64,000 nucleotides of DNA from assembly GCF_000803065.1 (NCBI RefSeq), contig NZ_JSXI01000059.1:1-64000 (forward strand), read 5' to 3'. The notes beneath the pieces are model-generated. The model saw nothing but the letters and a program-made list of their open reading frames with translations. It ran no database searches and was not told the DNA's origin. The position numbers and the translations under genes are program-made. Position 1 is the first letter of the stretch. Each line of letters begins with the position of its first letter. Source of the DNA: Sphingomonas sp. ERG5 (lineage in GTDB: Bacteria; Pseudomonadota; Alphaproteobacteria; Sphingomonadales; Sphingomonadaceae). This document shows positions 3,244 to 26,971 of the stretch, in pieces.

Positions 3244-3265
3244 GGTTTCGAGCCCTTGGCCCTGG

Positions 3266-3476
3266 GGCAATCCTGTTTTCAACCGCGAGAAAGAGCGTGC
3301 CGGCATAAGTCCGGCAAAGAGTGACCTGCCCGATCCCATGCGATGATTGAATCGCCGACGGCAGCATTGCGGAGGGGAGGAGCGCCGGGAGATATGTTAC
3401 ACCTGTATGTTACATATCCTTTCCGTCGGCACCCCAACGAAAACCCAGTATAAATATTGTATATCAGATACTTAAT
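3266..3476 (-). repeat. Dispersed ~210 bp intergenic element, copy 1
   Basis: Nearly the whole 288-base gap between hpnN and mlaA is an element that recurs in opposite orientation at about 26692-26905. Read on the minus strand, both copies begin TAAGTATCTGATATA, carry a TGTAACAT palindrome, then CTGCCGTCGGCG, GGGATCGGGCA, an imperfect GCCGG stem and GCTCTTTCT. By eye, identity is roughly three bases in four over the full length, with small indels. It encodes no obvious gene and no transposase. It could be a regulatory module, a small RNA locus or a non-autonomous repeat. Confidence 0.72.
3394..3415. promoter_or_regulatory. TetR-like palindrome in repeat copy 1
   Basis: Read on the minus strand, arms ATGTAACA and TGTAACAT are separated by six bases. 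The left arm differs by one base from a perfect inverted repeat. The equivalent site in copy 2 is perfect. The size and TGTAACA core resemble operators of TetR-family dimers, but no TetR gene lies in the window, so the binding protein is unknown. Confidence 0.45.
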
Positions 3477-3531
3477 TATCAGCGACTGGGATTGAACCAC
3501 CAACCGTTGTCGAGAGTGAAGTCGATAGGAG

Positions 3532-4665
3532 CTAGGGATTTGCCGGCGCGGCCGGATCGGCAAGCGGATCCTTGAGTGGATCGGCTTGCCTGGCGGGGGG
3601 ATCGCCGGCCGACGCGCCGGGTGTCCCGGCCTTGTCACTGGCAGGAACGTCTGGCGAGCTTGGAGCCGCTGTGGCCGGATCATTCAGAGGATCGTTGAGC
3701 GGGCTGGCCGCGCCCGATGCCGGGTCACTCAGCGGATCCTCCAGCGAGCCGGTTCCAATTGCTACCGTGCGACCGTGCAACGCCTCGATTTCGGCGGTGC
3801 GGTTCTGCAGATAGACCGATCGCAGCGTCGCATAGGGATCGACTGCACCGTCGAGCAGCGCCTTCATGTCGGCATCCGATTCGGCCCGTTGGTCGAGAGC
3901 GCCGAGCGCGCCCTTCGGCACCAGATACTGCCAGCGGTCGAATGGCTTGCCGACAGCGAGCGGCAGCACCATGCCGTCGCCCTGTCCACCGAGCAGATCG
4001 CGGAGCGTGGTAGGGCCGACGAACGGCAGAAACAGATAGGGGCCCGGGCCGACCCCATAATAGGCCAGCGTATTGCCGAAGCCATTGTCGTGATGCGGTA
4101 AGCTGAAGGCCGGTGTCTTGGCCACATCCACCAGGCCGCCGATGCCAATGGTCGAGTTGGTGAGGAAGCGCACCAGGGTCCTGATCGCCCGGCCCGGCTT
4201 GAGCTGAAGCAGGTCGTTCACGAAGACGATCGGCTCGCCCAGGTTGCTGAGGGCGTTGCGAATTCCTGACCGCAGCGGCTTGGGAACGACATGCTTGTAG
4301 CCCATCGCGACCGGCCGGATGATTTTTTGGTCGGCTGTCCGAAACACTGAGTACATGGCTCGATTAAAGCCTTCCAACGGATCCCCGGGCGTCGCCTCGA
4401 TGTTCCCGGCTGTGGCTTCCATCGCGGTTGGCGCCGTGGCGGGAGCAGTCTGCGAGGCGGTCGCGGCTGGGTCGACCAGCGGATCGAGCGGTGCAGACCC
4501 AGGGGGCGAAGCCGGCGCGACAGCCTCGACCTGAGGTTCTGGCGCGGCCGATTGCGGCGTGGCTGCAGACGAGACCTGCACGACCGGCATCGGCGCTGCC
4601 GCGGCAGGCTCTTCCGGAGGCGCGATAAACAGCGCAACCGTTGGCAGGACAAGGCCGAAGCTCAA
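3532..4665 (-). CDS. mlaA: MlaA/VacJ-family lipid transport protein
   Basis: The 377-residue product has a hydrophobic N-terminus, a Pro/Ala-rich linker to about residue 90, and the MlaA domain at roughly 93-240 ([44 protein letters not shown]). The last 65 residues are an unusual DPL/DPA-rich low-complexity tail. MlaA proteins sit in the outer membrane and remove or pass on lipids with MlaC-type carriers. The apparent start is TTG, sharing TTGA with the hpnM stop, which indicates translational coupling. No clear lipobox cysteine is visible, so anchoring may differ from the E. coli lipoprotein. The start is less certain than the family. Confidence 0.82.
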
Positions 4666-5279
4666 TTTCCGCCCTTGGCAGCCAGTTCATCGAGATGGCG
4701 AATCAACCCCTTCGCTCCGCCCGTCGCCAGTACCCGGGAAAAATCGGAACGGCGGGTGGCAAGCTGGCTGATCGAATTGCGATAATAGACATCAATGATC
4801 TTCCAGCCGCCACCACTGGCGCGCAGGCGGTAGGCGATCGGGATCGGCGCTTCGCCGGTCTGGACCAGGTTGGTGCGGACGAGCTTGTCGGTTCCGCGAG
4901 TCTCGACATTGGCGTCGACGGTGAATTTCTGGCTGGAGAAGGAGTCGAAATTGGTCGCGTATTGGCCGATCACCATGCGCCGGAAAGCCGCCACCAGAGC
5001 CGTCTGGTCCGCCGGAGCGATCCCATTCCAGCCGGCGCCGACCGTCAGCCGGGTCATCAGCGGCACGTCATAGACACGGTCGACAACGGGGCCGATCGCG
5101 GTCGCGCGGCCACGCACGCCCATCGCCTTGCCGCCCTTCATGATCGAGACCAGGCCGTCGCAAAGCGCCTGGACCGGCGCGCGCGCCGGATCGCCGGCCT
5201 GTGCCAGCGCCGCTGGTGCCGAAACGACCAGCGTGACGGCGGTAAGGGAAGGGATCAGAGAAGATGCCAGGGTTCGCAT
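4662..5279 (-). CDS. hpnM: MlaC/Ttg2D-like periplasmic lipid carrier, HpnM type
   Basis: ATG 5279 gives a 205-residue protein with a signal peptide ([20 protein letters not shown]) cut near ALAQA. The MlaC/Tol-Ttg2 fold follows, with [22 protein letters not shown], here cited only by its core GWNGI, plus [14 protein letters not shown] and [16 protein letters not shown]. HpnM is the hopanoid-locus version of the periplasmic phospholipid carrier and would shuttle lipid to or from the MlaA-like partner encoded next, with which it overlaps by four bases. It lies divergent from ispH across a 228-base gap that should hold both promoters. Hopanoid specificity is inferred from context. Confidence 0.85.
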
Positions 5280-5507
5280 GCTCGGTTCGTTCCATTCTGC
5301 CCCGTCGCCCCTGTATCGGCGGTGCAGCGCAAAATCCACCCTGCCAATGTGCCCTATTCTGCCGAAACGATGAGCTTCGAACCGTTTATGCCGCTTTTAC
5401 ACCTTTTTCTTCCGCTATCGCACCGCTATCTACCCTCGCGTAACGGCGAAGGATATCGCCGAACCGGGGGCTGGTTCGAAACTAGTACGGGGCTGGACAC
5501 GAGTTTG

Positions 5508-6482
5508 ATGACCGCCGAAAAAAAAGCTTCATTGCAGGTGATTCTCGCGAAACCGCGGGGTTTTTGCGCGGGAGTGGTACGCGCTATCGACATTGTCGAA
5601 CGCGCCCTCGACCTCCACGGGGCGCCAGTCTATGTCCGACACGAGATCGTCCATAATCGCCATGTCGTGAACAAGCTCCGAAGCAAGGGCGCGATTTTCG
5701 TCGAGGATCTTTCGGAGATTCCGGCGGGCGCGCCGACCATCTTCAGTGCGCATGGGGTCGCCCGGTCGGTGCAGGATGAGGCACGGTTGCGTCAGCTTCC
5801 CGTGTTCGATGCGACCTGCCCGCTGGTCACCAAGGTGCATGTGCAGGGCCGGCGCTACGCCAAGGCGGGACGCACCCTCGTGTTGATCGGGCACGCCGGG
5901 CATGCCGAGGTCGAGGGAACGATGGGGCAGGTCGATGCGCCGATCCATCTCGTCTCGACCGAGGCCGAGGTCGAAGCGCTGCCGCTCGCGATCGACACGC
6001 CGATCGCCTATGTGACCCAGACCACGCTCAGCGTCGATGACACCCGCGGCGTGATCGCCGCGCTGAACGAGCGTTTCAGTGACGTGCAGGGGCCGGACGT
6101 GTCGGAAATCTGCTATGCCACGCAGAACCGTCAGACCGCCGTGCGCGATCTCGCACGGGTCAGCGAGTTGCTGATCGTGGTTGGTGCCGAGAACAGCTCC
6201 AATTCCAACCGGCTGCGTGAAATCGGGGTCGAGATGGGGGTTCCGAGTTATCTCGTGGCCGATGGCGATGGGGTCGATCCGGCATGGCTGGTCGGGGTCG
6301 ATGCCGTCGGGATCACCGCTGGCGCCTCGGCGCCGGACGAGCTTGTCGATGACGTCATCGCGGCTCTGGCCCGGCTTCGCCCGATCGAGGTTTCGCAACT
6401 TGACGGTGTGGAAGAAAATATCGAGTTCAGCCTGCCGCCCGAACTCAGAAATGTAATGCCGCGCGTCGCCGCGGCCGAATAG
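5508..6482 (+). CDS. ispH: 4-hydroxy-3-methylbut-2-enyl diphosphate reductase
   Basis: This 324-residue enzyme makes IPP and DMAPP from HMBPP, the last step of the MEP pathway, using an oxygen-sensitive iron-sulfur cluster. The three cluster cysteines are visible: Cys20 in KPRGFCAGV, Cys104 in [11 protein letters not shown] and one near residue 205 in [10 protein letters not shown]. The active-site histidines are in HEIVHN and SAHGV, and SSNSNRLRE is present. ATG 5508 was chosen because it sits just before the conserved N-terminus; the frame stays open far upstream without family similarity. hpnH starts 10 bases after its stop, linking isoprenoid supply to hopanoid side-chain synthesis. Confidence 0.95.
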
Positions 6483-6491
6483 GACGATTCA

Positions 6492-7637
6492 ATGAGCCTT
6501 CCGCTTTCCCAGATCGCCCGAATCGGCGCTTATACGGTTCGCCAGCACATCAAGGGTGGCCGCTACCCGCTGGTCCTGATGCTCGAGCCGCTGCTGCGCT
6601 GCAATCTCGCTTGCCCCGGCTGCGGCAAGATCGACTATCCCGACGCGATTCTCAACCAGCGGCTGAGTTTCGAGCAGTGCATGGAAGCGATCGACGATTG
6701 CGGTGCGCCGGCGGTGTCGATCGCCGGGGGTGAACCACTGCTTCACCGCGACATGCCGAAGATCGTGAAGGGCTATATCGCGAAGAAGAAGTTCGTAATC
6801 CTGTGCACCAATGCGTTGCTGCTGAAAAAGAAGATCGACGATTATGCGCCGTCGCCCTTCTTTACCTGGTCGATCCACCTCGATGGCGACAAGGGCATGC
6901 ACGATCATGCGGTGGACCAGGAGGGCACATATGAGGTCGCGATCGAGGCGATCCAGCTGGCCAAGGCGAAAGGCTTCCGGGTTCAGGTGAACTGCACGGT
7001 GTTCGACGGTGCTTCGCCTGAACGGCTTGCCGCCTATTTCGACGAGATGGAGAAGCTTGGTGTCGAGATCACCATCTCGCCCGGCTATGCTTATGAACGT
7101 GCGGCGGATCAGGAGCATTTCCTCAACCGCACCCGCACCAAGCAATTCTTTCGCGACGTGTTTGCGCGGGGCAATGGCGGCAAGGACTGGACCTTCACCA
7201 ATTCGCCGCTGTTCCTCGATTTCCTGGCCGGCAACCGCAGCTATGAATGCACGCCCTGGTCAATGCCGCTGCGCACCGTCTTTGGCTGGCAGAAACCCTG
7301 CTATCTGGTCGGCGAAGGCTATGTGCAAAGCTTCAAGGAGCTGATGGAAGGCACCGAGTGGGACGATTATGGCGTCGGCAAATATGAGAAGTGCGCCAAC
7401 TGCATGGTCCATTGCGGTTTCGAGGGCACGGCGGCCACGGATTCGATCCGCCATCCACTCAACATGATGGCGGTCGCACGCAAGGGTGTCCGGACCACCG
7501 GGCCGATGGCGCCGGATATCGATCTCAGCAAGCAGCGCCCGGCGCAGGACGTGCATTCGTCGCACGTCGAGCGCGAGCTGGAGATCATCCGCAAGGCCAA
7601 TCCGAAAGCGGGTAAACACGTCTCGCAGGCTGCTTGA
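6492..7637 (+). CDS. hpnH: Adenosyl-hopane synthase, radical SAM protein HpnH
   Basis: The 381-residue protein carries the radical SAM cluster motif CNLACPGC (Cys37, Cys41, Cys44), the SAM-binding SIAGGEPLLH segment and a C-terminal cysteine set (CANCMVHCGFEG). HpnH adds the 5'-deoxyadenosyl radical to diploptene, giving adenosylhopane, the first committed step to extended C35 hopanoids. It follows ispH closely and ends convergent with hpnG, whose product acts on the next intermediate. Length and motifs fit the family throughout. Product recognition is strong. Confidence 0.95.
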   Translation: MSLPLSQIARIGAYTVRQHIKGGRYPLVLMLEPLLRCNLACPGCGKIDYPDAILNQRLSFEQCMEAIDDCGAPAVSIAGGEPLLHRDMPKIVKGYIAKKKFVILCTNALLLKKKIDDYAPSPFFTWSIHLDGDKGMHDHAVDQEGTYEVAIEAIQLAKAKGFRVQVNCTVFDGASPERLAAYFDEMEKLGVEITISPGYAYERAADQEHFLNRTRTKQFFRDVFARGNGGKDWTFTNSPLFLDFLAGNRSYECTPWSMPLRTVFGWQKPCYLVGEGYVQSFKELMEGTEWDDYGVGKYEKCANCMVHCGFEGTAATDSIRHPLNMMAVARKGVRTTGPMAPDIDLSKQRPAQDVHSSHVERELEIIRKANPKAGKHVSQAA

Positions 7638-7681
7638 CGCCCGCCTGATTTCGAACGGTGCGATGACCTGTCGCCACGGCC

Positions 7682-8341
7682 TCAGGCCGGCGGCAGGTCT
7701 TCCGGCGAAATATGGTCGAATCCAGTTGCGATGAGTGCCGCGAATGCGCGATCCAGGCTCTTGAAAGCGCGCCCGGCCTGATTGCCCGTGCGGACCAGGG
7801 CCGGTAGCTGACCGGGCTTGCGGGCCAGCGACCGGAGCACCGCGCCGAGCGCCATGCCGCCGTCCGGTTTCATCCCGACCAGCGCAGCGGGGGGCAGGGT
7901 CGATCCGGCGTCGTCCGATATCACCCGCAGCGCCACAAACGGCAAATTTCTTCGAGCGGCGACTTGGGCCGCGACATGCGTTTCCATGTCCACAGCAATG
8001 GCGCCGGTACGCGCGGCCAGTGTGCGCTTATTGGCTGTCGTTGCGACGATGGTATCGCTGCCAGCAACCGCACCGACCCGGGCATCGGGCAGGGCGGCCG
8101 CGATCTGCGCCACCAGATGGTGGTGACCGTCGATCACGATATCTCCCGGGCGCAGCGTCGGGTCAAGTGCGCCCGCCAGACCGCTCGACATGATGATCCC
8201 GGGAAACCTTGCTGCCCTGGCGTCGAGCTCGGCATCGAGGCGGGAGGCATCGCCGCCACCGATCACCACGGTCACGTCGCGGCCCGGCCGATCGATGATC
8301 CGTTCCTCGCGCTTCAGCCCGCAGGCGACGACCAGTGTCAC
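7682..8341 (-). CDS. hpnG: Hopanoid-associated nucleoside phosphorylase HpnG
   Basis: The GTG start at 8341 overlaps the shc stop as GTGA and gives 219 residues in the nucleoside phosphorylase/nucleosidase fold: VVIGGGDASRL, SSGLAGALDPTLRPGDIVI and AVDMETHVAA, the last matching the substrate-binding VDME segment of MTA/SAH nucleosidases. HpnG removes adenine from adenosylhopane to give phosphoribosyl- or ribosylhopane. It is the last gene of the hpnA-to-hpnG operon and converges with hpnH, the preceding enzyme. A longer frame runs upstream through shc in another phase and shows no family similarity, so the coupled GTG is preferred. Confidence 0.9.
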   Translation of the reverse strand: MTLVVACGLKREERIIDRPGRDVTVVIGGGDASRLDAELDARAARFPGIIMSSGLAGALDPTLRPGDIVIDGHHHLVAQIAAALPDARVGAVAGSDTIVATTANKRTLAARTGAIAVDMETHVAAQVAARRNLPFVALRVISDDAGSTLPPAALVGMKPDGGMALGAVLRSLARKPGQLPALVRTGNQAGRAFKSLDRAFAALIATGFDHISPEDLPPA

Positions 8342-10290
8342 ATGCCGTGCGCGACGCGGCGCGTGTTGGAGCGTTTGAGATTGCGATAGCGCGCCATCGC
8401 CCAGAGCGGGAAATATTTGGGATACCCATGGTAGCGCAGATAGAAGACTCGCGGAAAACCGCCCCCCGAGTACATCTCCTGCCCCCAGAGACCGTCGGCT
8501 TCCTGGTTCGCCGCCAGCCAGTCGATCCCACGCGTGACGGCTGGGGAGTCGACGTCGCCCGCCGCCATCAGGCCGAGCAGTGCCCAGGCGGTTTGCGAAG
8601 CGGTTGAAGACGCTGGCGTATGGCCCTTGTAATCGAGCGCATAGCTCTCGCAATCCTCGCCCCAGCCGCCGTCCGCGTTCTGGATCCGGGTAAGCCAGTC
8701 GACGGCTTTCGCGACGATCGGCTCCTCGGGTGCGATGCCCGCGGCATTGAGCGCGCACAGCACCGACCAGGTGCCGTAGATATAATTCACACCCCAGCGG
8801 CCGAACCAGCTCCCGTCGGACATCTGCTCCCTGGTGAGGAAGTCGAGCGCGGCGCGCATCCGCGCGCTGTCGCGGGTCTCGCCCAGTTGCGCGAGCATCG
8901 AGACGCAGCGTGCGCTGACGTCCGAGGTGGGCGGATCGAGCAAGGCGCCGTGATCGGCGAAAGGCAGGTTGTTGAGATAATGATAGCTGTTGTCGGCATC
9001 GAACGCGCCCCAGCCGCCATCGCGGCTCTGCAGGCCGACGGTCCATTCGACACCGCGATCGATCGCCTCGCGATCCTGGCCGGCCCGGGCGCGGTCCATC
9101 GCCATCACCACCACGGCGGTGTCGTCGAGATCGGGATAATGCGCGTTATTGTATTGAAAAGCCCAGCCGCCCGGCCGAACGTCCGGCTTTTCATCGGCCC
9201 AGTCGCCCTTCACGTCGAGCACCTGCAACGGCTTCAGCCAGTCGAGCCCGCGGCCTGCGCGCGCTTCGGCATCGTTGCCGCCCGCTTCGAGCATCGCATG
9301 GGCCGCAAGTGCCGTATCCCAGACCGGTGACACGCAAGGCTGGCAATAAGCCTCGTCCTCGCGGATCACGAGCAGTTTCTCGATCGATTGCCGCGCGATC
9401 GCGCGCGCCGGATGATCCTCCGCATAGCCCAGGCAATCGAACATCATCACGCTGTTGGCCATCGCCGGATAGATCGCCCCGAGCCCGTCCTCGCCGTTCA
9501 GTCGCTCCACCACGAAATCGACACAGGCCTGGATCGCGCGAGCGCGGAGCTTCTTCGGCCATAGGCCATTGCCGGCCTTGAGCACCCGATCGAGCGCGTT
9601 GAAACCATGAGTCCACAACCATTTGGGATCGGCCGCCTTGGTGCCCGGACGGACCTTTTCGCCGGTGTAAAGCTCATCGACCTTCACTCCGAGCGCGTTG
9701 CGCGCCACCGGTTGGAGCGCGCCGAGCACCAGCAGCGGCGCCACCACGGTGCGCGCCCAATAGGACATCTTCGACAAATGGATCGGGAACCAGCGCGGCA
9801 GCAGGATCAGTTCCGGCGGCATGGTCGGTACGACCGACCAGGGCCCCGCCGCGAACAGGGCGAGCTGGATACGGGTGAAGACATTGACCGCTGCAGCACC
9901 ACCCGCCGCAAGGATCGCGGCGCGGGCGTTCGCCATGTGCAGCGCGTCGACCGGATCACCGATCATCTTCAGTGCGTAATAGGCCTTTACCGACGCGCTG
10001 ACATCGAAAGCACCGCCATGGAACAGCCCCCAGCCATGATGCTCGCTCGACTGAATTCGACGCAGATACGCGCCGATCTTGGCTTCGAGCCCGGCATCGA
10101 CCGACTCACCAAGATAATGGCGGAGCAGGACATATTCGGCCGGAATGGTGGCGTCGGCCTCGAGCTCGAAAACCCAGTGACCGTCATCGCGCTGCAGTTT
10201 CGCGAGCGCATGGGTTGCGCGATCGACTGCTGCTTCGACCGTCGCGAGCGAGGTTGCGGTCCCCTCGATCTCGGAAAAACTCTGGTGCAT
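8338..10290 (-). CDS. shc: Squalene-hopene cyclase
   Basis: This 650-residue membrane-associated terpene cyclase converts squalene to diploptene and diplopterol. The catalytic acid motif DLDDTA lies near residue 380. Several QW-type repeats are visible, such as GLQSRDGGWGAFD, QNADGGWGED and EADGLWGQE, along with ARTVVAPLLVLG and the C-terminal YPKYFPLWAMARYR. It has full family length. ATG 10290 is 8 bases past the hpnE stop and the stop overlaps hpnG by four bases, placing it in the operon that also makes its squalene. There are no visible active-site losses. Confidence 0.96.
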   Translation of the reverse strand: MHQSFSEIEGTATSLATVEAAVDRATHALAKLQRDDGHWVFELEADATIPAEYVLLRHYLGESVDAGLEAKIGAYLRRIQSSEHHGWGLFHGGAFDVSASVKAYYALKMIGDPVDALHMANARAAILAAGGAAAVNVFTRIQLALFAAGPWSVVPTMPPELILLPRWFPIHLSKMSYWARTVVAPLLVLGALQPVARNALGVKVDELYTGEKVRPGTKAADPKWLWTHGFNALDRVLKAGNGLWPKKLRARAIQACVDFVVERLNGEDGLGAIYPAMANSVMMFDCLGYAEDHPARAIARQSIEKLLVIREDEAYCQPCVSPVWDTALAAHAMLEAGGNDAEARAGRGLDWLKPLQVLDVKGDWADEKPDVRPGGWAFQYNNAHYPDLDDTAVVVMAMDRARAGQDREAIDRGVEWTVGLQSRDGGWGAFDADNSYHYLNNLPFADHGALLDPPTSDVSARCVSMLAQLGETRDSARMRAALDFLTREQMSDGSWFGRWGVNYIYGTWSVLCALNAAGIAPEEPIVAKAVDWLTRIQNADGGWGEDCESYALDYKGHTPASSTASQTAWALLGLMAAGDVDSPAVTRGIDWLAANQEADGLWGQEMYSGGGFPRVFYLRYHGYPKYFPLWAMARYRNLKRSNTRRVAHGM

Positions 10291-10298
10291 TCGTCTTC

Positions 10299-11555
10299 CT
10301 ACCGCGCAAGTACGAGGCGCGCTACGGTTTCACCCGATCGCAATGCGCCCTCGATCGTCGCGGGCAGGCCGGTAGCGGTCCAGTCACCGGCCAGGAACAG
10401 GTTGCGCCAGCGTGTCGCAGCCAGCGGGCGCTTGGCATTCTGTTCCGGCGTGGCGGCGAAAGTCGCGCGCTTCTCCTTGACGATCTGCCAGGCCGGCATC
10501 GGTGCGTCGATGCCGAGCGCGGTTTGAATATCGGCCCAGAAACCCCGGGCCAGCGCTTCACGGTCCATCTCGACCAGCCGGTCGGCTGCGCTGACCGTCA
10601 CCGACAAGCGATCGGGAAAGGCGAAAAGCCATTCCGCCGTCCCCCCGAACAGCCCGAGCATCGGCGGCGCACCGGCCGGGGCGGGCAGCGCGAAATGGCC
10701 GTTGACGATGGCCCGGAAATCGTCGGGCGCTTGCAATGTCGGTACCAGCGAGGTTGCGACCCAGGGCGGCACCGCCAGGATTACCGCTTCATCGGCAGCG
10801 ACCGGCTCGATGCCCGCGCCCCAGTCGAGACCAGTCGCCCGGTCATCATCGAACGCGATACCGCGAAGCCGGCGCCCCAGCGTCACCGGGGTTTTCTGGC
10901 TGTCGAGCCAGGCAAGGGCAGGGTCGATAAAGGCCGCGGCAAGGCTGGGTTCCGCGATAAGCGGACGCATCGCGCGGCCACCCTTGGCGATCGTTTCGCG
11001 CAGGACGTTGGCAGCAAGCAGGGCCGAGGATTCGCCTGGAGCGGTGTTGAGCGCCGCAAGCAGTATGGGCTCAAGCAGCAGCGACCAGACTGGGCCATGC
11101 GTGGCGATACGCTGGTCGATCCGGCCCTCGCGGTTCGACAACAGCTTTGCCAGGGGCAGATAGTCGCTGATCCGGCTGCCCGGCACGCGCCGGGCTGGGG
11201 CTGCGATCCACCAAGGGACAGCGCCGTCATTGATCCGCACCGCCCAGCGCTTCGAGTTCGTCAGGTCCTGAAAGGTGAAATCCGCATGGTCCGGCCCTGT
11301 CAGTGGCGTCGTCGCGCTGACCGCGGATCGGAAGCGCGCAACCGCCGGATTACCCGACAATACGAGGTGATTGCCATTGTCGATCGTCAGGCCAAGCTGC
11401 GGATCGTGATAGGAACGGCAGCGTCCCCCGGCCTGTGCCGCGGAATCCGCGATTGAAACCGCGACGCCGGCCTTGCGCAATGTGACGGCGGCGCAAAGTC
11501 CAGCCAGACCGGCACCGGCAATCGTCGCCCGAGTGAAGCTCAACGCGTCAGCCAC
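10299..11555 (-). CDS. hpnE: FAD-dependent squalene-forming oxidoreductase HpnE
   Basis: The 418-residue protein has an N-terminal dinucleotide site (TIAGAGLAGLCAAV), GGRCRSYHD as in phytoene-desaturase-like amine oxidases, and a C-terminal FAD segment (LFLAGDWTATGLPATIEGAL). HpnE reduces hydroxysqualene to squalene, the last of the HpnC-HpnD-HpnE steps that replace a single squalene synthase. The marked start is GTG 11555, overlapping hpnD by 16 bases. TTG 11543, which would share TTGA with the hpnD stop, is an equally coupled alternative and loses only four residues. Confidence 0.92.
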   Translation of the reverse strand: MADALSFTRATIAGAGLAGLCAAVTLRKAGVAVSIADSAAQAGGRCRSYHDPQLGLTIDNGNHLVLSGNPAVARFRSAVSATTPLTGPDHADFTFQDLTNSKRWAVRINDGAVPWWIAAPARRVPGSRISDYLPLAKLLSNREGRIDQRIATHGPVWSLLLEPILLAALNTAPGESSALLAANVLRETIAKGGRAMRPLIAEPSLAAAFIDPALAWLDSQKTPVTLGRRLRGIAFDDDRATGLDWGAGIEPVAADEAVILAVPPWVATSLVPTLQAPDDFRAIVNGHFALPAPAGAPPMLGLFGGTAEWLFAFPDRLSVTVSAADRLVEMDREALARGFWADIQTALGIDAPMPAWQIVKEKRATFAATPEQNAKRPLAATRWRNLFLAGDWTATGLPATIEGALRSGETVARLVLAR

Positions 11556-15346: not shown

Positions 15347-15486
15347 CTCGCCTCCGCGCGTTTCAATCGCGCTCTACACAGGATCCATGAGCGGCGATAG
15401 GGAGGGGCGATGGCGAATGCGATCACTCGGCCGAACCTTTCATACCTTCTCCCCTGGCGGGCGAGGGGGTTGCAGCGTTTGCCGCC

Positions 15487-18083: not shown

Positions 18084-18090
18084 CGATGCT

Positions 18091-18111
18091 CCCTCTCCCG
18101 GAGGGGGAGGG
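18091..18111 (+). promoter_or_regulatory. Hairpin covering the hpnK ribosome-binding site
   Basis: CCCTCTCCC and the purine run GGGGGAGGG can pair in a roughly nine-base-pair stem with a GGA loop in the hpnJ-hpnK gap. The right arm is the only Shine-Dalgarno-like sequence before the hpnK GTG. The stem could damp hpnK translation. Similar GC-rich palindromes are common between genes in related genomes, so function is uncertain. Confidence 0.4.
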
Positions 18112-18117
18112 GACAAG

Positions 18118-18951: not shown

Positions 18952-18961
18952 GACCTGCGCC

Positions 18962-19867: not shown

Positions 19868-19887
19868 AGAATTTCGCACGCGCGGGT

Positions 19888-20853
19888 ATGCTGCTCGCGA
19901 CCCTGGTGGGGTTGGCGGCCGCGGTCTGGGTCTTCGGCTCGATCGGGTTCGGCAGCGTGCTGGCGGCCGCGGGACGGATCGGGATCGGCGGGTTCCTGGT
20001 CTTCTGCGCCATTTCCATTTCGACCTTCTTGATTCTGGGTGCTGCCTGGCTGGCGGCGGCGCCGGGGGAGCCGCTCACCCGGGTCGGCCTGTTCGCCTGG
20101 GCGCGGGCCGTGCGGGAGGCGGTATCGGATCTGCTCCCCTTTTCGCAGATTGGCGGCATCGTCGTCGGTACCCGGACATTGACGACGGCCGGCATCCCCG
20201 CGTCCCGGGTCTATGCGTCCTTCGTGGTTGATATGACGACGGAAATGGGCGCGCAGCTCGTCTTTACCCTGTTCGGCCTGACGATGATGCTCACGCTGTT
20301 TGCTGCGGACGGGGAGGCGGCGGCGCTACGTCCGCTCATCCTCGGTGGCACGGGCGTAATGGCTGCGGTGATGGTCATGTTCTTCTTCGCGCAACGCCCC
20401 GCGCTCGGTCTGGCCGGAAGGGTCGCCCAGCATTTTCTGCCTGGATCGGTCGTTGCGATGACCGGGATCACCGACAGATTGCGCGAGACCTATGCGCTGC
20501 GCAGGCGCGTGGCGCTGGCCTTCGCGCTGAACCTGGCCGGCTGGATCGCCAGTGCAATCGGCGGCTGGGTCGTGCTACGGATGATGGGGGCGGATATTTC
20601 GATCTGGTCGGCGCTGTCGATCGAAAGCCTGATCTTTACCTTGCGGAGCGTGGCCTTTGCCGTGCCGGGTGCGATCGGCGTGCAGGAAGCTGCCTATGCC
20701 CTGGCCGCGCCGCTGTTCGGCCTGCCCCCCGAAACGGCGCTGGCTTTGTCACTCGCCAAGCGTGCGCGCGATCTGGCGATCGGATTGCCGACATTGATCA
20801 TCTGGCAAATTGGCGAGGCGCGGGCAGTGGCGCATGCTGTCCGCAAGGGATAG
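19888..20853 (+). CDS. hpnL: Hopanoid-associated membrane protein HpnL
   Basis: The product is a polytopic inner-membrane protein of about 321 residues with several hydrophobic segments (LATLVGLAAAVWVFGS, FLVFCAISISTFLILG, GVMAAVMVMFFFAQ). It carries the AVPGAIGVQEAAYALAAPLFG signature of the family that includes the transmembrane half of lysyl-phosphatidylglycerol synthases. It ends the hpnI-J-K operon. Function is unproven; lipid flipping is suggested by the relatives. ATG 19888 is marked, but the frame is open to CTG 19864, which would overlap the preceding TGA as CTGA and add eight residues, matching other coupled starts nearby. Confidence 0.85.
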   Translation: MLLATLVGLAAAVWVFGSIGFGSVLAAAGRIGIGGFLVFCAISISTFLILGAAWLAAAPGEPLTRVGLFAWARAVREAVSDLLPFSQIGGIVVGTRTLTTAGIPASRVYASFVVDMTTEMGAQLVFTLFGLTMMLTLFAADGEAAALRPLILGGTGVMAAVMVMFFFAQRPALGLAGRVAQHFLPGSVVAMTGITDRLRETYALRRRVALAFALNLAGWIASAIGGWVVLRMMGADISIWSALSIESLIFTLRSVAFAVPGAIGVQEAAYALAAPLFGLPPETALALSLAKRARDLAIGLPTLIIWQIGEARAVAHAVRKG

Positions 20854-20987
20854 TCGGCTTTCCGTGACGTCGGATGGCGGGACGGCGACTCGTTCAGCGA
20901 CCGTGGATTGTGGGTCTGAGTTCCGGCCAGATTCCGGCTAAATCGGCCTTTCGGTCGACAGTCCTGCAGCGAATTCATTGAAAGCGC

Positions 20988-21062
20988 TGGTGACCCCTAC
21001 GAGAATCGAACTCGTGTTTTCGCCGTGAGAGGGCGACGTCCTAACCGCTAGACGAAGGGGCC
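20988..21062 (-). tRNA. tRNA-Glu (anticodon CTC)
   Basis: The minus strand folds as a standard cloverleaf. Acceptor arm GGCCCCT pairs with AGGGGTC (one G-U), followed by discriminator A and encoded CCA. The D-arm contains AGCGGTTAGGA. The anticodon arm is CGCC CTCTCAC GGCG with CTC at positions 34-36. The T-arm carries GTTCGATTC. There is no intron or mismatch needing explanation. It lies alone between hpnL and mprF, transcribed toward hpnL. Confidence 0.95.
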
Positions 21063-21158
21063 GTGCAAGCAGAGGCGCGGCAAATAGGGCGAGGGTGGGG
21101 TGGCGTCAAGCAGCCCGTCACGCGAGGGGCGCAGACTCGACGATCGATCAGCCACCCA

Positions 21159-23732
21159 TCAGCCGCCGATCAGGCCGACGAGATTGATCATCGCCCATGG
21201 CGTGGCGAGGCCTGGCATGGTCGCGACATAGCGCGGTACCCAGGCGGGCTGGAATTTTGCCTTGAACGACCGCAGCCCCGAAAAGCCATACAGCGCTTCG
21301 CCATGGCCGTAGATCGCATGGCCGATGCGTGACCAGAGCGGGGCGAGGCGGCGGCCTGTGAGGCCCGACAGTGGCGCCATGCCGAGGTTGAAGCGCGTAT
21401 AGCCATTGGCGGCGCCCCATTGCATCAGCCGGACGAACAGCAGGTCCATCGTGCCATAGGGCGTGTCGGGCAAATGCCGCATCAGATCGACCGACAATTC
21501 GGCGCGGTTGCGGGTCGTCCAGATATTGGCGAAAGCGACGATCCGTCCTTCCTGCCGCAGCACCGCGCAGTCGAAGCGGGCGAGATAGGCCGGGTCGAAG
21601 CGTCCGACGCTGAAATATTTCTCATGCCCGCCCTTGTCGCCGAGCCAGGCGTCGGACACCGTCCTGAGTTCCGGCACGATCGCGGGCACTCCGGCGGCCG
21701 GAACGATGTCGAACGACAGGCCGGCGCTTTCTGCTTTGCGCGTCGAATGGCGCAGCGATTTGGACGCCGGCCCTTCAAGCGTGAACGTGGCGAGATCGAC
21801 TTGTGCCTCGTCGCCATATTTCATCACTTGCAGGCCCATTTCGATCAGCAACGGCAGCAGCTCGTTGCTCGCCTGATAGAAGCACAGCCGTCCATGCGCG
21901 GCATCGCATTTGCCGCGGATCTGCCAGACCAGGTCGGACCAATCGGCGAACTGTCCAACGGGATCGCCCATCACTACCCAGGTGCGTCCGCGCACGCGAT
22001 ACATCAGGAAAGCGCCGCCCGACGCCGAGACGAGAAATTGCTTGTCGCCGGTCAAGGCGAGTGCGGCGTCGGCGCGCGAGGACAAAGAGAGCGCAGCATC
22101 GGCGACCTCGGGCGGCAGGCTGGCATTGCCGTCGGGCCGGATCGGCGCGCTAAGCAGCCGCCAACATGCCACCGCCCCAAGCAGGACCGCTGCCCCCATG
22201 CTGGCGCGCAGGAAACGCGGCGCGTTGCCCTTCCAGGCAAAGGCCCACCATAAATCGTCGTTGTAGGGAATACGCTTGTAAGCGAAGAATCCCGCCCACA
22301 GACTGAGGCCGATCGCGACCGCGGCAGCGGCAAACCAGGTACGTTGCAGCGGCGCATCGAGGATGCCGGCGCGGCGGTAGAAAGCGGGGCGGCAATATTG
22401 CAGGATGACCGCGATCACGCCGAGCAGCGTGGCTTCCTCATAGTCGACGCCCTTGAGGAGCGAGAAGATGATGCCCCCGGCGAGCAACAGCCGCGCGGCG
22501 AGGAAGCCGCTGCGCATCCGCGCGCTGATCGCCGGGGCGACGAGCAACAAGGCGGTGCCGGCCATGCTGGCGGCGAAATGCGACGCCTCGACGAACGGCA
22601 GCGGTACGACATGTGCCAGCCAGTGGATCCGCCAATGCACTGCCGGCAACGCACCCGATACGAGCAGGATCAGTCCGCCGGTAAATACCAGCAAGCCGAT
22701 CAGCGGTGGGGCGAGAAAGCGGGCGCTACGTTCGGCGAGCGAGAGGCCAATCGCGATCGGACGGCGCAGCCTGTGGCCCTCGACCGAGGCAAGCAATCCC
22801 GCCGCGACAATCAGTGGCAGGACATAATAGATCAGCCGGTACAGCAGCAACGCGGCGAATACGGCACCATTGGAAGCCGGCGTGATGGCCAGAATGATTG
22901 CCTCGAACACGCCGATGCCACCGGGTACGTGTGACACGGCGGCGACGGAGACCGCCACGGCATAGGCCAGGTAGAAATAGGCGAACGTCTCGGGGGCTGC
23001 GTTGGGCAGCAGCACGAACAGGGCGGCGTAAGATGCCGCGAGGTCGAACGCGGCAACGCCCAATTGAGCGGCCATGATCGAGGCCGATGGGATGGGCAGG
23101 GTGAAGCGCCCAATCCCGACTTGTTCGACCCCGCGCAAACGGGCGACGAACAGGCATGTCAGCAAAGCCAGTATCGCGATGCCGATCGCTTGACCCGCCA
23201 TCGTCGGTAGAACGAGGCCGCCGATATCGATTGGCGCACCGCCACTGAGCAGCGCCAGTGCGGCGACGCCGAGCAGCGCTGCCCAGAACGCGGCGGAGGA
23301 GAGCAGCCCGACACGCGCGACATTGCCGAGATCCAGTCCCGCGGAAGCATAGACCCGGTAGCGGGCCGATCCGCCAGTCAGCAGCGTAAGCCCGAAATTA
23401 TGGCTGATTGCGTAGCTGGTGAAGGACGCCAGGGCGGCGGTTCGCCAGGGGAGGTGCACGCCGATTGCGCGCAACGACAGCGTCTCGCTGAAAGTCAGCG
23501 ATAGATAGCTGAGCGCGGTCAGCGCCAGCGCCGCGACGATCTGCGCTTGCGGGATCGCGTGAAGCGCATGACGGACATCTTTCAGCCGGACCTCAACGAG
23601 GATTGCGCGCAAGGCTCCGAAACCGGCCAGTGCGACAAGGAGCACGGCAAGAATCGCCAGCGCGCGGCTGTTCGCACGGCCCCAGGCGAGCGCTTCGCCA
23701 ATTCGGTCGCGCCGGATCAGACGCGGGTCCAT
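21159..23732 (-). CDS. mprF: Phosphatidylglycerol lysyltransferase / flippase MprF
   Basis: The 857-residue protein begins with a long multi-helix membrane half (about residues 25-540, with VSHVPGGIGVFEAIILAI) and ends in a soluble aminoacyl-transferase domain of the DUF2156/GNAT-like type (GDPVGQFADWSDLVWQI, KYGDEAQVDLATFTLEG, DLLFVRLMQWGA). MprF transfers lysine from Lys-tRNA to phosphatidylglycerol and flips the product, lowering surface negative charge and raising resistance to cationic peptides or acid. The start MDPRLIRRD at 23732 is a choice; MALQIADMD at 23753 is possible. It overlaps DUF2147, and the neighbouring virJ gene suggests a cycle of making and degrading aminoacyl lipids. 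Confidence 0.92.
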   Translation of the reverse strand: MDPRLIRRDRIGEALAWGRANSRALAILAVLLVALAGFGALRAILVEVRLKDVRHALHAIPQAQIVAALALTALSYLSLTFSETLSLRAIGVHLPWRTAALASFTSYAISHNFGLTLLTGGSARYRVYASAGLDLGNVARVGLLSSAAFWAALLGVAALALLSGGAPIDIGGLVLPTMAGQAIGIAILALLTCLFVARLRGVEQVGIGRFTLPIPSASIMAAQLGVAAFDLAASYAALFVLLPNAAPETFAYFYLAYAVAVSVAAVSHVPGGIGVFEAIILAITPASNGAVFAALLLYRLIYYVLPLIVAAGLLASVEGHRLRRPIAIGLSLAERSARFLAPPLIGLLVFTGGLILLVSGALPAVHWRIHWLAHVVPLPFVEASHFAASMAGTALLLVAPAISARMRSGFLAARLLLAGGIIFSLLKGVDYEEATLLGVIAVILQYCRPAFYRRAGILDAPLQRTWFAAAAVAIGLSLWAGFFAYKRIPYNDDLWWAFAWKGNAPRFLRASMGAAVLLGAVACWRLLSAPIRPDGNASLPPEVADAALSLSSRADAALALTGDKQFLVSASGGAFLMYRVRGRTWVVMGDPVGQFADWSDLVWQIRGKCDAAHGRLCFYQASNELLPLLIEMGLQVMKYGDEAQVDLATFTLEGPASKSLRHSTRKAESAGLSFDIVPAAGVPAIVPELRTVSDAWLGDKGGHEKYFSVGRFDPAYLARFDCAVLRQEGRIVAFANIWTTRNRAELSVDLMRHLPDTPYGTMDLLFVRLMQWGAANGYTRFNLGMAPLSGLTGRRLAPLWSRIGHAIYGHGEALYGFSGLRSFKAKFQPAWVPRYVATMPGLATPWAMINLVGLIGG

Positions 23733-24148
23733 ATCTGCGATTTGCAAAGCCATCCTCCGATCAGGCAGCCGGAGATTTTGAGGCTGTCGGGCGATAGCTG
23801 AACGATCCGCGACGAGAAGCTGCGGCCCATATCGGGGACGAACACCGTGCCCGACCATTTGCCCGGGCCGGTCGCGCGGTAGCCGGAGAGCAATTGCACA
23901 CCGACCAGCTGTTGGACGCCGGCCTCGCGGGCATCCTGCTCGGCGACCGGGCTCGCATGAGCGATGACGCCGCACAATTCGCCGCCACACGCCTGGGTAC
24001 GGACTTGCAGCGTGTTCTGAGGGTTATGCCACAGGCCAAGAATGGGCAGCGCCTCGATCGCCGCCGGGGCGGGGACTGCGGCGGCGAGGGCCGGGATTAC
24101 CGCAAGCATCATCGCCAGCCGGCCGGAACGAATCCCGGAACGAATCAT
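23717..24148 (-). CDS. DUF2147 exported protein
   Basis: This 143-residue protein has a signal peptide (LAMMLAVIPALAAAVPAPAA) and the DUF2147 domain: ILGLWHNPQNTLQVRTQAC, CGVIAHASP and the C-terminal LKISGCLIGGWLCKSQIWTR. The family is a small beta-rich periplasmic protein of unknown role, often annotated as an envelope protein. It overlaps virJ upstream by ATGA and mprF downstream by 16 bases, so all three appear to be one transcript. Its presence between the lipid synthase and the hydrolase is the best clue to function: something on the periplasmic side of aminoacyl-lipid homeostasis. That is inference. Confidence 0.82.
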   Translation of the reverse strand: MIRSGIRSGRLAMMLAVIPALAAAVPAPAAIEALPILGLWHNPQNTLQVRTQACGGELCGVIAHASPVAEQDAREAGVQQLVGVQLLSGYRATGPGKWSGTVFVPDMGRSFSSRIVQLSPDSLKISGCLIGGWLCKSQIWTRV

Positions 24149-24906
24149 TGCGTAACTTCCTTGAGCTGGGGAACATAAGGGCGAAGCGTGGCGACGATCG
24201 TGGCGAGCAGCTTCGGTTCATCGCGGTGGAGGTAATGGCCGCCGGGCAAAGCGATGACCCGGGCCGATGTGCCCTTCAGGTGAGGGCAGAGGCTATCGGT
24301 TTCCTGTTCGCCGTGAATGCACACGAACGGCGCCCAGTCGATGCTCTTCGCCGCCGTTATCGGGTCTGCGTCGGGCGTGCCACGATAGGCGAAGCCGGTC
24401 GGATCGGCGCGATAGAAAACGCTCTGGCCAGGTACTACCAGGACGATCGCGGCGATGCGCCGGCGCAGATCGGGGGGGAGTGCCGCCGCTCCGGTGCCCA
24501 GCACATCAGCACCGAACGACTGGCCGATCAGGATAATTCGTGCGGCGCTGGTCCGCGCCAGGACATCGCGGACTGCATGCGCGACGATCGCATCGACTTC
24601 GGCGCGCGTCCGGTGTCGGGCGAACAACGCCGGCGAACTGATGCCGAGCACCGGAATATGCCGCGCGGCCAGCGCGTTGGAAACGCCGCTGCCCATACCG
24701 AAGTGCAGGCCCATATCGCCCGACATATAGAGCGCCGCGACGGGTACAGTGCCTTTTGCGGGGCTCGCGAAGAAATGGTCGGGATCGCTGTCGAAGAAGC
24801 CCGCCGCCCAGGCGACAGCGCAGCCGATGGCCAGAATTACCCCCGCCACAAGGAGGATCGGACGCAACGCCGACCGGCGACGGGTGTTGAAGGGGGATCT
24901 AGCCAT
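24145..24906 (-). CDS. VirJ/AcvB-family serine hydrolase
   Basis: The product has an N-terminal membrane anchor (PILLVAGVILAIGCAVAWAAG) and an alpha/beta-hydrolase-type domain: LYMSGDMGLHFGMG, a nucleophile elbow IGQSFGAD and a C-terminal GGHYLHRDEP supplying the catalytic histidine. AcvB of Agrobacterium, with its single-domain relative VirJ, is reported to hydrolyse lysyl-phosphatidylglycerol, and in rhizobia acvB/atvA lies in an acid-induced operon with the MprF homologue lpiA. The same pairing here, with mprF two genes downstream, supports that role. ATG 24906 was chosen; ATG 24915 and GTG 24936 are in frame upstream. Confidence 0.85.
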   Translation of the reverse strand: MARSPFNTRRRSALRPILLVAGVILAIGCAVAWAAGFFDSDPDHFFASPAKGTVPVAALYMSGDMGLHFGMGSGVSNALAARHIPVLGISSPALFARHRTRAEVDAIVAHAVRDVLARTSAARIILIGQSFGADVLGTGAAALPPDLRRRIAAIVLVVPGQSVFYRADPTGFAYRGTPDADPITAAKSIDWAPFVCIHGEQETDSLCPHLKGTSARVIALPGGHYLHRDEPKLLATIVATLRPYVPQLKEVTQ

Positions 24907-25010
24907 TGCGCACATGTAACCATCGGCAGATTTCACAGAGATGGCGGCGGGATGACGAATTTGTCATGCGCACACACCGCTCGATACACGTCGTAATAGG
25001 CTGAGGATAG

Positions 25011-25026
25011 CCGTCCTGCAGGACGG
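25011..25026. promoter_or_regulatory. Perfect palindrome upstream of the virJ-mprF operon
   Basis: CCGTCCTGCAGGACGG is a perfect 16-base self-complementary sequence about 105 bases upstream of the chosen virJ start. The size and position suit a dimeric repressor or activator site. It could also be a hairpin in the leader transcript. No regulator gene is adjacent. Confidence 0.35.
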
Positions 25027-25187
25027 TGCAGTCTGTCCCGAACGTCGCCATATCGCGGGGGTGTAGCCCGGTTGCGGCGTCGAGGTGAAATCGAAAAAAG
25101 CGCTTCGACTAGCGGTGCATGGCTTATTGCGCGCGATCGGATTTGTGATGTCGCCGTCCCGCTTCCGGGCACGACGGAGTCGACAAT

Positions 25188-25321
25188 CCACCCCTGTTAC
25201 GTTGGAAATACTCGACAAAATAGTTATTATTTTTCATGTACTTGCTAGAAAATGCGGCTCGCAGGCAATGGCCGTTAACAGGGGGAATAGCAGGAGTGGA
25301 TCAGGCCGATAACAGGGGTGG
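25188..25321. repeat. 12-base inverted repeat around an AT-rich core
   Basis: CCACCCCTGTTA (25188-25199) and its exact complement TAACAGGGGTGG (25310-25321) bracket 110 bases. A third related copy, TTAACAGGGGG, lies at about 25275-25285. The bracketed DNA includes TAGTTATTATTTTTC, far richer in A+T than the surroundings. No coding sequence is seen. It may be a multi-site operator, a structured leader or a small non-autonomous element. Confidence 0.5.
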
Positions 25322-25464
25322 CCGTCGCGCGGCTTTCCCGCGGTCGGTCATCTTGAATCATCTCGTCATGTGAAAGAGCGCGCGGGGACCCGGAAGGCCT
25401 CGCTCGGGCGCGACGTTTTCATGATCGGCGTGGCGATTGAATCGAGCTGCGCTCGCGGCCGGCA

Positions 25465-26301
25465 TCACCGCAAATTGCTCTCGCCCTCTTCCAGCACCTC
25501 CACCTGATCCCCGACGGTGATCTCGCCGGGCCGATCGGGAATGGCGTTCTGCCCGAACATGACGCCGCCCTTCGCCATCCGTCCCATCGCGCGCAGCGTG
25601 GTCAGCGGGTCATTCCCTTCGCCTTGTTCGCCGGTCAGCGGATGCTGTGTCGTGATGACGCAGCGCGCGCAGGGTTTGACGATCCGCAGGGTGACGTTGC
25701 CGATGCGAAGCCGCCGCCAGCGGTCCTCGGCCCATTCATCGGCGCCGGCGATGACGATATTGGGCCTGAACCGCTCCATACCAACTGGCACGGCCAGGTG
25801 CGCGTTGAGCGCCCGGAGTGATGCTTCGCTGGTGATCAGGAAGGGAAAACCATCGGCCAGGCTGACCTGGTCGTCCACACTGGCATAGCGCGGATCGATC
25901 GGCCGCGGGGCCATATCGTCCTGATAGACGAGCCGTACCGGCTTGCCCAAAGCCCGGGACAGGAATGCGGCGGCGTCGGCCGATGCAAGGCGGACGGAGA
26001 CCGTGTCGCGCCAGATCCTGGCCTCGATCGTCGCGGCGTCTCCATCCGGTCGGCCGACACGATGCACGCCCAGATCGGGATGGCTGAGGATCAGCGCATC
26101 GCCGTCGCGATCGACCTCGAACCGCGCCATGTGCGGCAATTCGCGCCGCGTCTGGAAACGGCCGGTATCGTCGACCACCATCCAGCGCCGGTCACCGACA
26201 ATCCCGCGCGGTTCGATCGTCGCCCGGTCAAGCGCATGACCGCGCAGGCTCTTTACCGGATAACGGTGCAGGCCAGTGATGTGCGGAGCGGGAGAAGCCA
26301 T
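25465..26301 (-). CDS. MOSC domain protein (YcbX-like)
   Basis: The roughly 278-residue protein has an N-terminal MOSC beta-barrel (ITGLHRYPVKSLRGHALD, GDRRWMVVDDTGRF) and a C-terminal MOSC domain with NIVIAGADEWAEDRWRRL, KPCARCVITT and a final GDQVEVL. MOSC proteins bind the molybdenum cofactor through a conserved cysteine, here probably the one in PCARC. Relatives reduce N-hydroxylated compounds. It stands alone between two non-coding stretches. The start is uncertain: ATG 26301, ATG 26313 and 26337 are all in frame without a good ribosome-binding site. Confidence 0.82.
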   Translation of the reverse strand: MASPAPHITGLHRYPVKSLRGHALDRATIEPRGIVGDRRWMVVDDTGRFQTRRELPHMARFEVDRDGDALILSHPDLGVHRVGRPDGDAATIEARIWRDTVSVRLASADAAAFLSRALGKPVRLVYQDDMAPRPIDPRYASVDDQVSLADGFPFLITSEASLRALNAHLAVPVGMERFRPNIVIAGADEWAEDRWRRLRIGNVTLRIVKPCARCVITTQHPLTGEQGEGNDPLTTLRAMGRMAKGGVMFGQNAIPDRPGEITVGDQVEVLEEGESNLR

Positions 26302-26382
26302 GACCGGCGTCATAACGGAACGATGGGCGGCGTCCATGTTGCTGTGAAGGCCTGCCGCTCGATTGGCCGCCCTCCGGGCCGC

Positions 26383-26690
26383 TCAATAGAGATTCGACTC
26401 ATAATCCTTGTCCAATCCCTTGCGCATTAGCCCGAGGATCGCGGCAGCGGTGCCGATCAGCTTCGCCTGAAGACCCTAGTCCCTGTTGATCTTCAGATGC
26501 GCGACGAACAGCTGTGCGGCGTCGAGATCGGCGGTCTCGCCGAGCGGCCATAACACCGCTCGCGTCAGCGCGGCGCTTGGCTCCAGCCGGAGGTCGAGAT
26601 CGTCGATGCACGTGACGAGCGCCGGCACCTTGTCGCGTACCGCGAAGCCGGCACGAACCTTGGCGTCGCATCTCGCGGCTGGATCCTGTC
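26383..26690 (-). pseudogene. Decayed gene fragment of unknown family
   Basis: One minus-strand frame reads as plausible protein: FAVRDKVPALVTCIDDLDL, then AALTRAVLWPLGETADLDA and AQLFVAHLKINRD, interrupted by an in-frame TAG at 26476-26478, then continues GLQAKLIGTAAAILGLMRKG and ends at 26383. No start codon with a ribosome-binding site is present, and the frame runs straight into the adjacent repeat copy. The picture is a gene whose 5' end was replaced or removed by the repeat and which then gained a stop. I do not recognise the family. Because codon composition continues on both sides of the TAG, decay is more likely than chance. Confidence 0.5.
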
Positions 26691-26691
26691 T

Positions 26692-26905
26692 AAGTATCTG
26701 ATATATAATGGATTATGTGGACCATTCGCTGGGGCGACGGTCGAAAGACCATGTTACATTCCGGTGTAACATATCTCCCATTGCTCGTCCTGCAGTCCTG
26801 CCGTCGGCGGCGATTCAACCAGCGCACGGGATCGGGCATGTCACCCTTGCCGGATTTAAGCCGACCTGCTCTTTCTTAGTGTCGAAAACAGCATTGCCAC
26901 GGCGC
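26692..26905 (+). repeat. Dispersed ~210 bp intergenic element, copy 2
   Basis: This is the second copy of the element at 3266-3476, in opposite orientation on the chromosome. Shared blocks in order are TAAGTATCTGATATA, a TGTAACAT palindrome followed by ATCTCCC, CTGCCGTCGGCG, GGGATCGGGCA, a GCCGG stem, GCTCTTTCT and GAAAACAG. A TATAAT hexamer sits at 26704-26709 near its left end. It lies between a broken gene and the 3' end of a convergent hydrolase gene, so it does not obviously drive a neighbouring gene. Confidence 0.72.
26751..26772. promoter_or_regulatory. TetR-like palindrome in repeat copy 2
   Basis: Arms ATGTTACA and TGTAACAT are perfect inverted complements separated by six bases (TTCCGG). 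It occupies the same place in the element as the imperfect site at 3394-3415 and lies about 45 bases downstream of a TATAAT hexamer. It resembles a TetR-family operator; no cognate regulator gene is present in the window. Confidence 0.5.
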
Positions 26906-26971
26906 CCGCAGCGCCGCGCGCCCTGTTGATGATTCAGGTGATTTGGCTGGCGTCACGCTGAGGCGCCGACA

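Follow-up and report, generated by a model that had tools for sequence, protein, structure and literature searches.

The first 64,000 nucleotides of contig NZ_JSXI01000059.1 of Sphingomonas sp. ERG5 (the whole stretch analysed, hereafter the window) contain two inverted copies of an intergenic element, here named w1 and w2, which lie around a hopanoid locus. Both are ordinary members of a family of non-coding elements, about 240 bases long and present in about 40 copies in this genome. On the best reading this is a new family, restricted to a few genomes within a single genus and of the kind represented by the RIB/BIME-1 elements and the Caulobacter CcrM-associated intergenic repeats (CIR). 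The elements are probably protein-binding and transcript-ending sites placed behind genes.

A dispersed family of intergenic elements

A preliminary description of the window had recorded the inverted pair, at roughly 75% identity, by eye. This was borne out by a blastn search of the genome, in which positions 1-209 of a w1 query (3266-3476) matched 26691-26898 on the opposite strand with 75% identity (E 2.2e-31). A profile model of the family placed w1 at 3237-3475 on the forward strand (187 bits, model positions 2-241 of 241) and w2 at 26916-26691 on the reverse strand (185 bits, model positions 13-240), both being full-length copies. The same query returned 42 matches in the 5.74-Mb genome, so that the pair is neither solitary nor aligned at chance level. 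Five copies lie on the 165-kb contig itself, near 3, 27, 80, 102 and 121 kb.

Full copies, defined as model matches spanning at least 140 positions and scoring above 70 bits, numbered 112: 40 in the genome under study (G000), 38 in G068 and 34 in G033, the last two being other genomes of the genus. Excluded from this set were two partial (L045, L046) and ten compact copies (L047-L056) of G000, together with, from G068, L100 and L111, which core arrays interrupt, and L145-L150, six loci of compact or array form; none of the 34 in G033 was left out. The cores of L017, L029, L044 and L049 (contigs C57, C48, C5 and C15 of G000) each lie no more than about 100 bases from the end of a contig, well in excess of chance expectation; the hairpin perhaps breaks sequencing or assembly.

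The distribution of the family was assessed across 295 genomes of the genus. BLAST, with two candidates scored per genome, matched nine; six of these shared just a 24-36-base piece (E 8e-5 to 8e-4), leaving G000, G068 and G033. A 135-position sequence model, applied under strict filters that lost some weak matches, matched these three and two further genomes of the genus, G266 (two compact, weaker copies) and G286 (a weak match of 12 bits on rescoring, devoid of the core). Neither of these searches detected a full copy in the remaining 292 genomes. An exact two-part pattern occurred 38 times in G000 and not at all in 396 other genomes drawn from the taxonomic family. Two exact patterns gave no match in a genome-contig collection from which near relatives may be missing, and copies such as those of G266 fit neither pattern. 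The plasmid and phage collections likewise returned no match. A phage or plasmid origin was rejected on this ground; 33 viral contigs carried a loose pattern, a number close to chance on a rough estimate, and the best of them reached just 15 bits.

The sampled pairs of copies averaged 74-77% identity, both within and between genomes, and the closest pair within a genome, among 581, 538 and 489 compared in the three, was 87% identical over an alignment of at least 150 bases. An old family that turns over slowly is the best explanation. At the gathering threshold, Rfam recognised only a tRNA in the window, and the region around w1 (3150-3560) gave no match up to E 5. None of four family motif strings was printed in the literature searched, nor do the portions of it that the search returned describe such a family in Sphingomonas or its relatives. 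Thus, the suggestion in the preliminary description that the two copies might belong to an undescribed repeat family is upheld by the BLAST matches, the full copies in three genomes, the absence of an Rfam match and the unprinted motifs.

Conserved motifs, gene context and folding

In the family alignment, the GC-rich left end carries a short hairpin and a T run, followed by AGAAAGAGCG and a GCCGG..CCGGC hairpin. The middle comprises TTGAATCG, a variable G-rich stretch and then the core, GAGATATGnnACACC, with its right arm; the right end is AT-rich and reads TATATCAGATACTTA. The longest runs of columns conserved in at least 96% of copies are TGAATC, GAGATAT and ACACC. GAATC, a form of the GANTC site of CcrM-type methylation, stands at the conserved place in 110 of the 112 copies, 25-78 bases 5' of the core dyad; it is on the strand of the core in 111 of 112 and is followed by a purine in 109 of 111. 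Of the 112 copies, 99 match GAGATATGnnACACC at all 13 of its fixed letters. Furthermore, near the right end 48 copies, all in one register, match WATCARNNNNTTR, which we take to be the IHF consensus (shuffle mean 0.46 of 112), marking a putative IHF site, the third conserved part of the element beside TGAATC and the core. A small-protein reading was set aside since the spacing between conserved blocks varies by 13-14 bases.

Of the ten compact copies of G000, all of which lack the left half, nine retain TGAATC 5' of the core. The same holds for both G266 copies and for three of the six additional loci of G068, another of which has GAATC without the T. Core arrays were observed in G068 (L145, L100, L111 and L146), with two to four cores mostly 51-57 bases apart, some of whose right arms are decayed. 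Additionally, a second dispersed palindromic repeat (resembling GTCATCCCCGCGAAAGCGGGGATCC) comes directly after the element's right end at two sites, namely L182 at site D of G000 and L196 and L194 at sites D and C, respectively, of G068.

Gene context relied on calls by a simple program that scores codon usage, trained on 3565 window codons, with neither annotation nor transcripts used, and could be counted for 106 of the 112 copies; the other six had a neighbour that was uncalled or beyond the end of the stretch. Sixty-three of the 106 lie between convergent genes, 38 in tandem contexts and five between divergent genes. Among gaps of at least 60 bp, the baseline convergent share is 17% on contig C1 of G000, 20% in a 400-kb region of G068 and 17% in the window (19%, 28% and 20%, respectively, when counted by bases). 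At least one neighbouring gene ends towards the element in 101 of the 106 copies, compared with approximately 74-78% of such baseline gaps, and the left end lies within 50 bases of a stop codon in 57 of the 85 copies that have a gene running towards it. The tandem copies are divided equally between the two orientations (19 '++', 19 '--'), as expected for a DNA site. A position at the 3' ends of genes with no fixed direction relative to transcription thus favours a DNA site over a purely RNA device. Orientation relative to the replichore was not significant (G033, p 0.20; G068, p 0.51); chromosomal spacing was weakly uneven in G033 (p 0.045) and not so in G068 (p 0.11).

The preliminary description had also raised an RNA role, and for most of the element this is not supported by base pairing. 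RNAalifold drew hairpins along the element, but the four putative hairpins outside the core showed no covariation, their observed and expected pairs being 264/265, 484/486, 231/233 and 446/449; a structured RNA spanning the whole element was therefore rejected. RNA model building obtained no consensus pair from an alignment of 49 sequences. Pair counts exceeded independence only at two core positions, which do covary, one paired in 81 of 109 copies (47 expected) and the other in 63 of 109 (44 expected). An impression of covariation in the outer core stem failed a flank-swap between copies in G000 and G068, though in G033 the stem folded better with its own partner.

The core hairpin folds about equally well on both strands (mean z -4.5 top, -4.4 bottom; 38 copies sampled), and the eight letters after it hold 2.5-3.3 T on the top strand of the element, compared with 1.1-1.6 on the other. 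When the left arm was kept and only the right side was shuffled, the core proved far more stable than chance in G000 (mean z -4.3) and G068 (-4.0) and hardly so in G033 (-0.6), the one of the three species in which the hairpin has largely decayed. In G033 the left core arm is nevertheless exact in 27 of the 34 copies and one letter off in the other seven. Since the fold is largely lost there while the arm is kept, a conserved RNA hairpin is not the whole story.

Turnover between species, the core letters and the window copies

Copies have clearly been gained or lost between species. Contig C1, which holds two full and two compact copies, is collinear with G068 at 0.94-1.34 Mb where the two align, save for a few displaced or short cross-matching blocks. 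At two sites, A and B, G000 has 0-11 bp where G068 has approximately 470-500 bp including an element; at another, a full copy in G000 corresponds to three tandem cores in G068. Inspection by eye of the family alignment and of the empty sites A and B revealed neither a target duplication nor a terminal inverted repeat. A link to RAYT transposases was tried and rejected after one family search and a locus scan: Y1_Tnp proteins number two in G000, four in G033 and none in G068, and none of the six Y1_Tnp loci (2.1-3.3 kb) contains a core or an element.

Two letters of the core vary between species. TT predominates in G000 (38 of 40 copies) and GG in G033 (28 of 34); G068 is mixed, with 24 TT and 13 GG among its 38 copies. 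Twenty cross-genome pairs of copies with related neighbours were listed, of which 19 were ranked by similarity (L038/L085 was left out). Among them, L013/L133 differ in neighbour order, and L039/L125, L039/L078 and L043/L093 each rest on one neighbour. The rank of these same-site pairs averages 0.28, where 0.5 would indicate unrelated copies; L043/L122 and L042/L132 are among the poorly ranking pairs, and independent arrival at the same gap is possible there. Five pairs are reciprocal best matches. Three of these oppose GG to TT (L030/L138, L125/L078 and L142/L097, with two to three neighbours agreeing in each), and at these it is very likely that the core letters changed in place. The TT member of a pair folds into a perfect dyad; the fold of the GG member is imperfect. 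The remaining two are unchanged, L037/L096 being both TT and L063/L084 both GG. The last-named pair, from G033 and G068, is 93% identical, far above other same-site pairs, and two adjacent proteins are 99% identical, which hints at a recent exchange of the segment.

Within the window, w1 lies between the convergent hpnN (forward strand, ending at 3243) and an mlaA-like gene (reverse strand, ending at 3532); its left edge coincides with the hpnN stop codon and its right edge falls 56 bases short of the end of the mlaA-like gene. On the forward strand it presents, in order, a terminator-like left-end hairpin followed by AATCCTGTTT (3252-3268), the conserved block AGAAAGAGCG (3288-3297), the GAATC (GANTC) site (3349-3353), the core dyad GAGATATGTTACACC...TGTTACATATC with one mismatch in its right arm (3389-3418) and TATCAGATACTTA, a candidate IHF-type site fitting the consensus (3462-3474). 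The terminator search found two candidates in the w1 region, the other lying on the reverse strand at 3316-3298 (shuffle mean 0.4). The second copy, w2, is 3' of a hydrolase gene (26972-28015, reverse strand) and has, on that same strand, a terminator-like left-end hairpin followed by AATGCTGTTT at the same element position as in w1 (26896-26912; one found, shuffle mean 0.3), GAATC (26812-26816), the dyad GAGATATGTTACACC...TGTAACAT (26748-26777) and TATCAGATACTTA as a candidate IHF-type site by consensus match (26691-26703). A promoter search of both window copies found none. The longest exact run that the copies share is 17 bases.

The preliminary description held that the copies contain no transposase, and none was recognised in the surrounding lists of open reading frames, where just 10 window proteins were scanned against families. 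It further held that the pair brackets every hopanoid gene but hpnN. This stands for shc, hpnH, hpnC and hpnJ, the genes identified between the copies, and for hpnN, which lies to the left of w1. The bracketing is incidental, as w1 and w2 are two of approximately 40 copies and of five on the contig. Window positions 20979-41964, which include both sides of w2, are syntenic with a fetched 80-kb stretch of G068, and the sequence to the left of a tRNA-Glu gene (20988-21062) is not. Thus, synteny ends at the tRNA and not at w2, which is not a border of the hopanoid block. That block (window 1-20979) adjoins the tRNA-Glu(CTC) gene and is absent from the syntenic place in G068, which suggests that it was gained (or lost) at a tRNA. 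No match to hpnN was present among the 66 matches listed in G033 and G068 for a 1.6-kb query comprising the ends of hpnN and the mlaA-like gene (40 candidates scored per genome).

Proposed function and comparison with known systems

With moderate confidence, we infer from sequence features that these are protein-binding or attenuator DNA elements at the 3' ends of genes, working mainly as double-stranded DNA. This reading draws on the copy number, the convergent contexts (63/106), the conservation of GAATC (110/112) and of the core arm (99/112) and the single register of the IHF-type match (48/112), together with the two covarying core positions, the terminator-like left ends of w1 and w2 and the retention of TGAATC in most of the compact copies without a left half. 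In such a mechanism, IHF would bend the right end and a predicted protein would read GAGATATGnnACACC, as a dyad in two of the species, its binding being modulated by the methylatable TGAATC. Their joint effect, between genes that are mostly convergent, would be to insulate or attenuate transcription and to fix supercoiling, as is thought for RIB/BIME-1 of E. coli. At the RNA level, the upstream transcript may be further attenuated by the core hairpin and by the hairpin and T run of the left end. Several observations weigh against this proposal. The presence or absence of copies between species means that the element is dispensable at some sites; the core of G033 folds barely better than its shuffles; the left-end hairpin, over 27 copies of the family, folds little better than shuffles (mean z -0.6) and shows no covariation; fewer than half of the copies fit the IHF consensus exactly; and every one of the 110 conserved GANTC sites has A as its N, which CcrM alone would not require.

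A less favoured, though possible, account is that the family is a non-autonomous mobile element of MITE-like or REPIN-like type, its copies mostly old insertions kept where they are harmless behind genes and its motifs the sites of a past or present transposase. The dispersal of the copies, many of which have no same-site partner found in the other genomes, the two sites that are empty in G000 and occupied in G068 and the tandem core arrays of G068 are all consistent with this. However, sites A and B display no terminal inverted repeats or target duplications by eye, young copies are lacking (the closest within-genome pair being 87% identical, with means of 74-77%), the Y1_Tnp loci hold no element, and GAATC and the core arm stay near exact while the remainder drifts. 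We consider it unlikely that the family consists of 3'-untranslated-region RNA elements, whose hairpins in the upstream transcript would terminate transcription or protect mRNA from 3' exonucleases. The nearness of the left end to stop codons, the stability of the core hairpin and the excess of T after it on the top strand would suit such a role, but pairs in the four other putative hairpins are no commoner than independence predicts, the outer core stem gains nothing from its own partner in G000 or G068 (it does in G033), the core hairpin is largely decayed in G033 and tandem orientation is balanced. Moreover, an intrinsic terminator, identified by eye, already precedes the compact element at site C.

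Least probable by far is the proposal of the preliminary description that w1 and w2 are a recombination substrate for inversion of the hopanoid locus. Their inverted orientation and 23.4-kb spacing would permit it, but it is not supported: the longest shared exact run is 17 bp, the contig holds five copies from a family of about 40, and both w2 flanks, and contig C1 where it aligns, are collinear with G068; the w1 side has no counterpart in the fetched G068 stretch.

A bolder version of the DNA-site reading, and one that we regard as quite improbable, is that the element is a two-part chromosomal address, the methylatable TGAATC plus GAGATATGnnACACC, read by a trans-acting factor whose shift in GG/TT specificity changed dozens of sites, some of them in place. 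The reciprocal-best, same-site pair L125 (GG, G033) and L078 (TT, G068) provides an example, sharing a common loop and both still folding. The differing neighbour order of L013/L133 and the imperfect folding of the GG partners in G033 weaken the case. If true, a nucleoid or cell-cycle factor and all of its sites would have co-evolved on the scale of the genome.

To our knowledge, little is known of the functions of 3'-end repeats such as BIMEs outside E. coli. The present family matters as its central motif differs between whole genomes of close relatives: with few genomes, about 40 copies at partly shared sites and a core letter pair that differs between relatives, it offers a natural experiment by which the protein reading such repeats might be identified. 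It also cautions that an inverted pair of copies need not mark the borders of a locus.

RIB elements were reportedly described in E. coli by Boccard and Prentki in 1993. BIME-1 of the same species consists, according to PMC2817692, of two oppositely oriented REPs around an IHF site. The Sphingomonas element resembles RIB/BIME-1 in being extragenic, in lying at the 3' ends of predicted transcription units and in having a dyad and an IHF-type site (putative here, with a consensus fit in 48/112), and tandem versions exist, as in BIME-2. It differs in its single dyad core to one side of the IHF-type site with no opposite REP pair, its greater length (240 bp), its conserved GAATC and its restriction to a few genomes of one genus. 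Among shorter palindromes, the Bradyrhizobium repeats Br-REP1, which occupies about 200 sites, and Br-REP2 are, according to PMC5082802, likewise alphaproteobacterial 3'-untranslated-region repeats found also between convergent genes, Br-REP1 containing GAATC/GATTC; the core bears no resemblance to them by eye. The Correia elements/NEMIS of Neisseria are also short repeats, the longer form of which has an IHF site and is almost wholly intergenic; PMC2229807 attributes to them terminal inverted repeats of 24 bp, TA termini and target duplications, none of which was seen in our element. Unlike REP/REPIN sequences moved by RAYT, its copies do not flank a Y1 transposase gene, and unlike a MITE, it shows by eye no terminal inverted repeats or target site duplication. 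For GcrA, the extended target given in PMC7987155 is YGAKTCK; the lower strand of most copies reads YGATTCA, fitting six of the seven positions, so that the extended site is incomplete.

The CIR (Chen and Shapiro 2003), as described in the review by Delihas (PMC2229807), are approximately 110 bp long and have two long inverted repeats, one of which bears GANTC at its loop. By that description they share with our element an alphaproteobacterial, intergenic setting, a conserved GANTC and the want of a clear terminal inverted repeat. Here, in contrast, GAATC lies outside the dyad, on its 5' side, and the short hairpin that begins in GAATC shows no covariation. Lacking one defining feature each of RIB/BIME-1 and of CIR, the element is filed under neither and, by analogy, probably works like both.

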